64,000 nucleotides of DNA from Opitutia bacterium ISCC 52. GTDB lineage: Bacteria > Verrucomicrobiota > Verrucomicrobiia > Opitutales > UBA2995. Where the stretch lies: contig CP076040.1 in the NCBI GenBank assembly GCA_014529675.2, positions 2,871,894 to 2,935,893 on the forward strand. The letters run 5' to 3'. Each line of letters begins with the position of its first letter. Position 1 is the stretch's first letter. Position numbers and translations under genes: made by a program. This document shows positions 35,486 through 44,417 of this stretch, one piece after another. The notes below the pieces were generated by a model. That model was not told the origin of the DNA, searched no databases, and saw only the letters and a list, made by a program, of their open reading frames with translations.

Positions 35486-35593
35486 GTAGGGCTATTGCTT
35501 CTAGCAATGCCGCACGCTCTTGTTCGAAACGGCATAGCGAGGACGCTATTGCCCTACCCTTTTGGATATGCAGCCGCGGTCGAAAGACCGTGG
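35486..35593. repeat. REP-like array A: mirror pair plus third hairpin
   Basis: Element A1 is GTAG (35486-35489) followed by the hairpin ATTGC-TTCTA-GCAAT inside GGC/GCC. Element A2 is the hairpin ATAGCG-AGGA-CGCTAT inside GGC/GCC, followed by CTAC (35554-35557). Together they are mirror images that start GTAGGGC and end GCCCTAC. A third hairpin CCGCGGTC-GAAA-GACCGTGG sits at 35574-35593, next to the esterase stop. The array fills the gap between two convergent genes. Confidence 0.7.
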
Positions 35594-40722: not shown

Positions 40723-42597
40723 TTAATTAGCCATGGATTGCGCTTTCAGGAATTCCATCACACGAACGTCATAAGCCTTGTAGCGCCCCATCCAATCAGC
40801 AGTTAGGTCTTTGGGGTTGATAGGCCAAATAGCAGCCGATTTCTCAAAGACACCTTCGTCGTAAGGATAATCTTCTTGTACGTGATCCAGAGCATTGATC
40901 GCCTGCAAACGAGCCATCACGTTCGAATCGTTTAAAAGGACTTCGTTTAACACAGGACGTGGATCAGCTTCTCCAAGTCGGGCAAGGTGCTCGGCAGCTG
41001 CTATACGAATCGCCGCGATAGGACTGTGAGTTAACTCTTTAATCTGCCTGGTAGCCCGAGCGGCATTTTTTCCTAGAATCATGCAATTCACCAGCGCCCA
41101 GTATTGAACGACTGGATTGGACGACTTCAGCAGTGATTGCAGTTTAGGCAGCGCATTCCGCCCTTCAATTAACAGGGCATCAGCCGCGTCCATGATTTCT
41201 GCAAGCGGATATTGAACATCGTCATGACCTATGGCGTAGGGTGTCTTTCCTGATCCTCTACTCCATTCGATCAATAAGGCCTCGGGAATAAATCCGGTAT
41301 CCCGAATCTTCATCATGTGGTCGCGATTAGCCTTCCGAAAACGCTCCAGGGTTTTGCGGTGCTTGGGATCCTTCGCTAAATTATTTACTTCATCCGGATC
41401 ATTTTGGAGATCGAATAGCTCTTCCATAGGGGCAGGCAAGAAGAAGGCGCTTTGGGCTGCTGTCGCTTCACCAGATCTAAACAAGTCTTCAACTTCACCC
41501 GTCGCAGGATTGTCCCACAGATAGTTCACATGCTGCCCCGTTGGTAGATAGGCGAGGTAGTTGCGGATGTAATTAAACCGACCGTCTGTAACACCACGCT
41601 TGAAATCAATTCGCTCATCGGCACGAGCACGAAAGGTATGACCAAACTCCAGAGGCCGAGTTCGTTTCTCACCAAGGAACGGACGTCCATGCATATGATC
41701 CGGAATATCTGCTCCAGCTAGACTCAGCAGGGTTGCCGCAAAATCGACAAAACCAACCACTTCCTTTGTTTCTGTTCCTGGTTTGTGGGGTGAAAGATGA
41801 GCCCATTTTTCAGGAAAGCGAATGACCAAGGGAACATTGGTTCCACTATTGTAGATAAAACGCTTAGACCGTGGCATGACTCCACCGTGATCCGAATAAT
41901 AAAATACGATGGTGTCATCAGCCAAACCAGCATCCTCAAGCTCTTGCAAGCGTTCACCGAAAAAGGTATCCATGAGAGAGATACAGTGGTAGTAAGTAGC
42001 AATACGATTTCGGGTTGTTTCTGAGTCAACCAGATAGGCAGGCACTCGCACGTCCGCTGGGTCCGCTCCTAAAGGGTGAGTTTTTCGTGAAGGGTGCAAG
42101 TTACTCTCGTGAGTGATGTTCGTATTAAAGATGGCAAAGAAAGGCTTTCCTTCAGGTCGATTTTTCCAATGGGCCTTGTTGCTGCTCTCATCCCAACCAT
42201 CGATGGCATGGTCCACATTGTAATCGGTTTTGCTATTATTGGTGGTGTAGTAGCCAGCCTCCTTCAAATAATTAGGATAGCCTTTCACAAAGGAAGGAAG
42301 CGGAGCCTCACTTCGCATATGCTCGGCACCCAACGCAGGCGGATACATGCCGGTAAGAAGCGTAGTGCGCGCTGGAGCACAGACCGCAGCCGTAGAAAAG
42401 GCATTACGATAAAGAACTCCGTCCTGAGCCATCGCGTCGATATTGGGCGTTTTGGCTAACTTGTCTCCATACGCGCCGATATAGGGGCTGTTGTCTTCGC
42501 TGGTGATCCAGAGAATATTGGGTTTATCAGCGGCCTGAAGACCAAGAGAAACCACAATAAGTGTAAGTAGTATACGTGTAATAACTGAATTTATCAT
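40723..42597 (-). CDS. Secreted sulfatase with C-terminal HEAT-like repeats
   Basis: The 624-residue protein combines a sulfatase domain with alpha-helical repeats. The signal peptide is ITRILLTLIVVSLGLQA. NILWITSEDNSPYIGAYGD starts the domain and AAVCAPARTTLLTGMYP carries the formylglycine Cys in a C-x-P-A-R variant. VFYYSDHGGVMPRSKRFIY closes the active site. After about residue 470 the sequence becomes helical repeats (PVVQYWALVNCMILG, IAAIRIAAAEHLARLGEA, NVMARLQAINALDHV). It stops 28 bp before the next sulfatase gene, so the two are probably co-transcribed. Heparan-N-sulfatase-like S1 subgroups share this fusion. Confidence 0.92.
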   Translation of the reverse strand: MINSVITRILLTLIVVSLGLQAADKPNILWITSEDNSPYIGAYGDKLAKTPNIDAMAQDGVLYRNAFSTAAVCAPARTTLLTGMYPPALGAEHMRSEAPLPSFVKGYPNYLKEAGYYTTNNSKTDYNVDHAIDGWDESSNKAHWKNRPEGKPFFAIFNTNITHESNLHPSRKTHPLGADPADVRVPAYLVDSETTRNRIATYYHCISLMDTFFGERLQELEDAGLADDTIVFYYSDHGGVMPRSKRFIYNSGTNVPLVIRFPEKWAHLSPHKPGTETKEVVGFVDFAATLLSLAGADIPDHMHGRPFLGEKRTRPLEFGHTFRARADERIDFKRGVTDGRFNYIRNYLAYLPTGQHVNYLWDNPATGEVEDLFRSGEATAAQSAFFLPAPMEELFDLQNDPDEVNNLAKDPKHRKTLERFRKANRDHMMKIRDTGFIPEALLIEWSRGSGKTPYAIGHDDVQYPLAEIMDAADALLIEGRNALPKLQSLLKSSNPVVQYWALVNCMILGKNAARATRQIKELTHSPIAAIRIAAAEHLARLGEADPRPVLNEVLLNDSNVMARLQAINALDHVQEDYPYDEGVFEKSAAIWPINPKDLTADWMGRYKAYDVRVMEFLKAQSMAN

Positions 42598-42682: not shown

Positions 42683-42768
42683 CCACGGTGTCTCCACCGT
42701 GGCTACAATGTAGCGATGGTCGTGAGACCATCGAATTTCGAGGCAAAGCAGGGATGCTCTTAACCTAC
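42683..42768. repeat. REP-like array B: symmetric pair plus third element
   Basis: Hairpin B1 CCACGGTG-TCTC-CACCGTGG (42683-42702) is followed by CTAC, then AAT, then GTAG, then hairpin B2 CGATGGTC-GTGA-GACCATCG (42714-42733). Both stems are perfect 8-bp. B3 (AGCA-GGGA-TGCT, 42747-42758) ends in CTAC (42765-42768). B1 matches A3 (35574-35593) on the opposite strand. The array lies between the sulfatase start and the DUF1552 remnant, both minus. Confidence 0.72.
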
Positions 42769-42770
42769 CC

Positions 42771-43415
42771 TTAAGCCAAATCCAGCCCGGTCATCGTGCC
42801 TGTGGAAGAGGCAAACTGATCTGCTTCAATGCCCATGCTCTGCAGCATACTGACAAATAAGTTGGGCAATGGATAATTCCTATCCCGATCAAAGGCCAGA
42901 TGTTGCCCATGCTTAAAACCGCCACCCGCAATCAATACCGGCATATTGTTGGTGGTGTGCTTGTTGGCGTCTCCAAAGTTACTGCCAAACAGAATCATGG
43001 TATTGTCTAACATATCAGTATTGCCTTCGGTCGAGGACTTTAAATCCCCTAACAACTGAGCCAATAACTTCATCTGGGCATGATCGATCGCTTTTAGCTG
43101 ATTCAGCTTTCTCTCACTCTTCCCGTGATGAGATAGATTGTGGTAACCGTCTGAAATATCTACGCCCCTTACATTAATCGTCGGGGAATTATTACTATCC
43201 AATAACAAGGTAACGCTTCGTGACGAATCCGTTTCAAAGGCCAAACGTGCCATCTGGTACATCAGGGCTGTTTTGTCCATATAATCACTGGGCGAGTTTG
43301 GATCGAGGGGCATTTCGACTGGAGCCGAGGGCTTCGCTTTGAGTTCCCACTCACTACCCTTCTCCATGCGTTTCTCGACGTCCCTGATGGCCGGCTGAAC
43401 CTGTAACCAGGATCC
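42771..43415 (-). pseudogene. DUF1552 protein, C-terminal half only
   Basis: The readable part (about 214 codons) matches the C-terminal half of the DUF1552 family. It contains RLAFETDSSRSVTLLLDSNN, YHNLSHHGKSERKLNQL, LDNTMILFGSNFGDANKH, NMPVLIAGGGFKHGQHLAF and NYPLPNLFVSMLQSMGIEAD. Full proteins are about 430 residues with a Tat signal; that half is missing. Homologous sequence begins right after two consecutive TGA codons that end the upstream dehydrogenase (43416-43421). A deletion or rearrangement fused the two loci. DUF1552 normally works with DUF1592/DUF1588 cytochrome-like proteins, absent here. An ATG at 43367 could make only a headless fragment. Confidence 0.8.
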
Positions 43416-43418
43416 TCA

Positions 43419-44417
43419 TCAGGAAATGCTCAGCACATACTTCCCAAACTGGGGAGAAACTTTCATCTGAGCAATCGCCTCATTACCTTCTTCAAGAGGA
43501 TAAGTCGCATCGACCACCGGCTTGATCGCTTGCTGATTCACGAAATCCAACATGGCTTCGAAATCGGCTGGTGACCCCATCGTCGAACCCTGCAGACAGA
43601 GTTGCTTCCAGAAGACCTTCCGCATTTCGAGGATATCAGGTGGACCCAGGGTCGCTCCAAAATTCACAATACGCCCTCCCATCTCAACCAAATCAATCAA
43701 GGTATCATAGATGGGGCCGGCGGCACTATCGACAATGATGCTGGGTGCACCTGCAGCTTCCAAAAACTGGGCCGGCCACTCGTCATTCGTATAAAGAAAC
43801 CCGCCTTGAGCTCCCATCCTAATGGCTCGATCGATTTTACTTTGAGAAGATGAAGTCACCCAGACCTTGGCCTTTGCAGCTACGGAAAATTGCAGTAGAA
43901 AGGTTGCGACTCCCCCTCCTACTCCGGTGATTAACATGGTTTCACCTGCCTCAAGGTTGCCTTGTGAAAAAAGCGCACGATAGGCGGTGAGACCGGCCAG
44001 AGGCAATGCCGCTGCTTCGTGCCAATCCAAATGATCCGGCTTGGCGTGGAGTTGAGAAACAGGAATTTTAATTTCCGTGGCGAAGGTCCCATCTAAGGGG
44101 AGTCCCAGAATAGAAAACTCATCTCCAAATGCGGCCTGGCGATTCCCCCAATCAAGGCTCGGGTTGAGAATAACTTCTTTACCCAGCCAAGTTTCATCCA
44201 CGCCTTCACCTACTTGAGCAACGACGCCTGCCCCATCCGAACCCAGGATCACTCCGGATTTAATCCCCGGATACATGCCTTGAGTAATCCAAAAATCGCG
44301 ACGGTTGAGAGCCGCTGATTTGAGCTTGATGACCGCCTCTCCTGGGCCCGCTTCCAAATCGGCTCGTTCCTGTAGTTCCAGAGGTTTATGTGGTTCGTTG
44401 ATGACAAGTGCTTTCAT
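43419..44417 (-). CDS. Zinc-type alcohol dehydrogenase/quinone oxidoreductase (MDR)
   Basis: The 332-residue MDR protein is NAD(P)H-dependent. ALNRRDFWITQGMYPGIKSG and VILGSDGAGVVAQVGEGVDE form the catalytic GroES-like domain; no catalytic-zinc cysteine appears in the usual place, which fits the quinone oxidoreductase branch. EAAALPLAGLTAYRALFSQG and MLITGVGGGVATFLLQFSVA give the Rossmann fold. It probably reduces enones or quinones. It stands divergent from a small tautomerase gene. Its stop codon directly abuts the DUF1552 remnant. The substrate is unknown. Confidence 0.87.
   Translation of the reverse strand: MKALVINEPHKPLELQERADLEAGPGEAVIKLKSAALNRRDFWITQGMYPGIKSGVILGSDGAGVVAQVGEGVDETWLGKEVILNPSLDWGNRQAAFGDEFSILGLPLDGTFATEIKIPVSQLHAKPDHLDWHEAAALPLAGLTAYRALFSQGNLEAGETMLITGVGGGVATFLLQFSVAAKAKVWVTSSSQSKIDRAIRMGAQGGFLYTNDEWPAQFLEAAGAPSIIVDSAAGPIYDTLIDLVEMGGRIVNFGATLGPPDILEMRKVFWKQLCLQGSTMGSPADFEAMLDFVNQQAIKPVVDATYPLEEGNEAIAQMKVSPQFGKYVLSIS

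Follow-up and report, generated by a model that had tools for sequence, protein, structure and literature searches.

Two short hairpins lie at positions 42683-42733 of the window (the whole 64,000-nucleotide stretch of the Opitutia bacterium ISCC 52 chromosome that was analysed), in a 173-bp gap between two co-directional minus-strand genes for a sulfatase and a fragment of a DUF1552 protein. The features of the locus are listed here with the only other family match in the window.

40723..42597, minus strand: sulfatase gene, start 85 bp from the pair; syntenic anchor
42683..42706, minus strand: REP element 1, GTAG CCACGGTG GAGA CACCGTGG, 0 mismatches to the family pattern; genome 2914576-2914599
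42707..42709, no strand: spacer AAT, 3 nt, separating the two GTAG tags
42710..42733, plus strand: REP element 2, GTAG CGATGGTC GTGA GACCATCG, 0 mismatches to the family pattern; genome 2914603-2914626
42771..43367, minus strand: DUF1552 protein, C-terminal fragment, 198 aa, end 37 bp from the pair
35570..35593, plus strand: degenerate single REP of the family, GCAGCCGCGGTCGAAAGACCGTGG, 2 mismatches; genome 2907463-2907486

The DUF1552 fragment (window 42771-43419) has 198 aa versus ~440 in congeners and abuts a zinc-dehydrogenase-like gene. Sulfatases are very abundant in this genome: the one in the window by itself has 66 matches there.

On the plus strand the pair reads CCACGGTG-TCTC-CACCGTGG (42683-42702), CTAC-AAT-GTAG (42703-42713) and CGATGGTC-GTGA-GACCATCG (42714-42733), in exact agreement with the two perfect 8-bp hairpins with 4-nt loops flanking CTAC-AAT-GTAG that had been described previously. 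Each arm is a GTAG followed by a perfect 8-bp stem and a 4-nt loop; the arms sit head to head on opposite strands, and the central 11-nt dyad is the two GTAG tags face to face. A GTAG directly 5' of a hairpin with a short loop is what defines GTAG REPs and BIMEs (GTAG or GTGG; stem of 6-20 bp). Folded as single-stranded DNA, both hairpins formed, at -17.7 kcal/mol (z ~ -6), and none of 200 shuffles was as stable. Chance would yield CTACNATGTAG 0.02 times per window; for the whole head-to-head pair with its tags the figure is ~2e-10, assuming equal base frequencies. The stems had been called unrelated; instead they are variants within a family, since both fit one consensus, with five of eight bases identical and mismatches at the other three positions (2, 4 and 8). 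Folding a longer stretch added a 6-bp outer stem around the pair (CGAAAT/ATTTCG), which looks incidental because no similar stem was seen by eye beside two other closely spaced head-to-head pairs. The site is intergenic and an Rfam search of the region returned no relevant match, so the pair is neither coding nor tRNA-like sequence, the finding that the original prediction had named as its refutation.

A BLAST-type search of the same genome gave 17 further partial matches, most of them GTAG-tagged hairpins of the same layout. A family census was taken by searching for patterns and examining a limited set of genome stretches: a degenerate pattern, whose variable stem positions were free on each side so that pairing there was not forced by the search, matched 82 times in the 4.8-Mb genome, versus 0 for the reversed pattern. 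The sequence CTACNNNGTAG alone was uninformative genome-wide (54 sites versus 86 in the reversed control). Over 50 distinct sequences the 8-pair stem was 96% paired. Changed but compensated stems, which the original prediction had proposed seeking elsewhere, were abundant: 64 doubly compensated cells were counted, whereas shuffles would give 23 and none of 500 reached the observed number, and the covariation signal was destroyed when the partners were slid. Sixty of 65 tested copies lay outside ORFs, the comparison figure for random positions being 446/2650 (17%), and these 60 were found between co-directional (32), convergent (22) and divergent (6) genes. The hairpins of the window are therefore members of a dispersed GTAG-class REP family whose copies are extragenic and keep their palindromes. 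A second REP family, GTAG-CACAGGCA-TCT-TGCCTGTG, is also present in the genome (46 matches with <=3 mismatches versus 0 in the reversed control; e.g. 3190172-3190194), and one of its copies has a LexA-like gene on one side and an interrupted Y1-transposase relative on the other.

Two RAYT genes in the genome are bordered by repeats of the same family.

Genome 1538018-1538557, minus strand: intact RAYT (TnpA-REP) homologue, 180 aa, with a head-to-head REP pair of the window-pair family on each side
Genome 2670117-2670614: RAYT paralogue, ~60% identical to the intact copy, with family REPs on both flanks and two in-frame stops

The intact protein matches the NCBIfam model REP_Tyr_transpos over nearly the full profile (52.7 bits, E 4e-14), below its curated equivalog cut-off of 80 bits, and also falls below the Pfam Y1_Tnp cut-off (17.9 versus 23). 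A cut-off of this kind is an annotation threshold rather than a biological criterion, and the score marks a divergent homologue. While phmmer with the single sequence against the PDB gave only a chance match, a profile built from 17 RAYT relatives matched E. coli TnpA-REP (PDB 4ER8) at 9e-10, so an alignment profile was needed. The resulting alignment places PDHxH over PEHMH and Y128 over Y115, the residue whose Y115F substitution is the catalytic mutant of E. coli TnpA-REP (PMC8266576). The intact RAYT reads PDHIH and YILQNP at these places and carries the HUH motif and the Tyr in a Y---NP context. Its counterpart of the E. coli GTAG-contact region, W94-Q95...E100-H101...R104, is L-Q...D-H...R; the D variant at the E100 position also occurs in published RAYT subclasses 2.5 and 2.7 (PMC6006769). 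In the paralogue, one of the stops falls exactly at the codon of the Tyr in YILQNP. An initial suspicion that this stop-bearing copy had lost its catalytic Tyr at 'AHDH' was dropped, as the alignment puts the Tyr in YI..NP, where the stop falls. Another two ORFs (158 and 177 aa; loci L002 and L004) are also RAYT-like. The repeat on their flanks is a different one, roughly GTAGGAGG..CTTG.., and a search with a guessed consensus found no copies of it.

We conclude, with a probability of roughly 0.93, that the window pair belongs to a GTAG-class REP family and forms a BIME/REPIN-like head-to-head heterodimer in a gap between co-directional genes, the family having very probably been spread by a RAYT, a hairpin-cutting enzyme whose gene lies elsewhere in the same genome. 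The identification as a head-to-head REP pair, already made in the original prediction, now has behind it the copy family with its covarying, compensated stems, the intergenic bias, and a cognate REPtron with conserved HUH and Tyr motifs. As single-stranded DNA, each arm would fold into a GTAG-tagged hairpin. The RAYT, an HUH-tyrosine enzyme whose gene lies in a REPtron built of the same repeats, would recognise the GTAG foot and the hairpin, nick and rejoin the DNA beside them, and so copy or move the pair to new intergenic sites. Cleavage and mobilisation in Opitutia bacterium ISCC 52 are steps that we infer; neither a target footprint nor a transposition event was observed for the family. 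Points against spread by the RAYT are its sub-cut-off scores, the Leu in place of W94, the congener G005, in which a cognate RAYT was not detected, and the copy number, since ~80 copies are fewer than the hundreds of classical REP families.

Comparison with close relatives, suggested at the outset as a check, showed that four congeners lack the pair at the corresponding position. In one (G001) a full DUF1552 gene and a short plain gap are found, in a second (G002) a methyltransferase-like gene lies between, and in a third (G004) the neighbouring gene is different. The fourth, G005, has a 97% identical sulfatase, and an epimerase-like gene replaces the DUF1552 fragment (this gene and the methyltransferase-like gene were named by reading their translations). 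Because the neighbouring gene has been exchanged in G005, the insertion of the pair cannot be dated against it; the pair was either gained in the window genome or lost in the congeners. G005 itself has 51 family matches; of 20 REP loci sampled in it, about 9 lie at sites that also have a REP in the window genome, mostly with intact stems and with flanking DNA of ~77-90% identity. The perfection of a stem is therefore not evidence of a young copy, and the recent origin that had been read from it is not shown. The REP-RAYT-REP arrangement of the window genome at the interrupted-RAYT locus (genome 2668000-2673000) has a lone REP as its counterpart in G005 (contig C243), which fits either a deletion between direct repeats or an insertion.

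These comparisons bear most on a variant of the favoured explanation that differs from it over present activity rather than identity, namely that the REPs of the genus are relics, passed on by vertical inheritance only, with no active RAYT. That many copies have an orthologous counterpart in G005 would suit such relics, as would the second RAYT copy with its stop at the Tyr position and the failure to detect a cognate RAYT in G005 (assembly ~90% complete) despite its REPs. Set against this, the ORF at 1538018 is intact with all motifs, and the pair is missing from the syntenic locus of the other congeners; we regard an inert remnant as clearly less likely than not. Far less probably, the hairpins serve the flanking operon as transcription terminators or mRNA-stability elements and are repeated by coincidence. 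The pair does lie downstream of one gene and upstream of its co-directional neighbour, and PMC3733652 considers it likely that REPs are often transcribed and function as RNA elements. However, a terminator scan at the pair found no intrinsic terminator-like site and Rfam gave no match, the GTAG tag is conserved yet lies outside the stem, and the same family flanks the RAYT gene. A chance or locus-specific regulatory palindrome, such as a protein-binding operator with nested dyads, has the symmetric layout in its favour and is highly improbable, being already contradicted by the census of 82 dispersed copies beside unrelated genes, by the variable spacer length and by the four congeners that lack the pair at this position.

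Returning to the RAYT-spread REP family, we considered how its copies are paired. REP neighbours within 200 bp were opposite-oriented in 23 cases and same-oriented in 3, and the opposite pairs comprised 9 head-to-head and 14 tail-to-tail arrangements. Spacers of the head-to-head pairs were 3, 3, 5, 6, 9, 9, 12, 12 and 28 nt, a spread that makes a fixed 11-nt centre no feature of the family. The proposal that this is the geometry expected for a dimeric nuclease is not supported, given these spacers, the predominance of tail-to-tail arrangements and the description of E. coli TnpA-REP as apparently monomeric (PMC6006769), although other authors have suggested that RAYTs form dimers (PMC2817692, PMC3116915).

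The two arms of a pair differ in a regular way. In analyses that were post hoc, on small and partly related samples, stem position 2 differed between the arms in 19 of 23 opposite pairs versus 10.7 expected (p ~0.0004; re-pairing p 0.002), and differences between partners were mostly flipped base pairs (44 flips versus 31.7 on re-pairing, p 0.001). Across 15 RAYT loci of other genomes plus the window pair, with one representative pair per locus, 22 of 35 differences were flips and 12 were transitions; none of the 16 outside RAYT loci with opposite pairs had only identical arms, and inverted pairs at RAYT loci very rarely had identical stems. We tentatively suggest, as a conjecture that may well prove wrong, that in Verrucomicrobiota RAYT systems the arms of inverted pairs systematically differ by flips (C-G to G-C, A-T to T-A) that would leave each hairpin perfect and spoil pairing between the arms, through a selected rule that would prevent one long cruciform or mark the two ends differently for the enzyme. 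A preference for REP heterodimers has been published and called unexplained (PMC3733652), and the flip pattern gives it a concrete, testable form. No mention of base-pair flips was found in the passages of the literature that were consulted. What is slightly new is the regular rule for the difference between the pair halves; the kind of repeat is already known.

Compared with known systems, the window family resembles the GTAG-class REPs and BIMEs of Di Nocera et al. 2013 (PMC3733652), a likeness judged from the text description of those repeats. Features in common there are the GTAG foot, a 6-9 bp stem, intergenic and RAYT-adjacent placement, and head-to-head and tail-to-tail dimers including heterodimers; the intergenic bias and the rarity at divergent gene pairs (6/60) also match. 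Another member of the Verrucomicrobia, Opitutus terrae, was already noted in that text for its many GTAG repeats, which have very short spacers. In a scan of named genomes, the closest RAYT relatives were nearly all Verrucomicrobiota, with a few Planctomycetes, a distribution that points to a probable verrucomicrobial host, and GTAG-tagged 8-bp hairpins were found at 26 of 55 related RAYT loci (next commonest tetramer, 6). The present case thus adds a divergent REP-RAYT pairing from a little-studied lineage.

With the REPINs of Pseudomonas fluorescens (Bertels and Rainey 2011, PMC3116915) the family shares a cognate RAYT and the inverted REP doublet, which is the likely replicative unit there and may be so here. 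It differs in its shorter, variable spacers and many singlets, and the folding prediction for its doublet gives two separate hairpins, in contrast to the one long hairpin of the REPIN definition. The E. coli REPtron, represented by TnpA-REP (PDB 4ER8), is alike in the HUH motif, the Tyr in Y---NP and the residues equivalent to Q95, H101 and R104. Unlike it, the RAYT of the window genome has Leu for W94 and Asp for E100, and the REP stem of the window family is short and unbulged.
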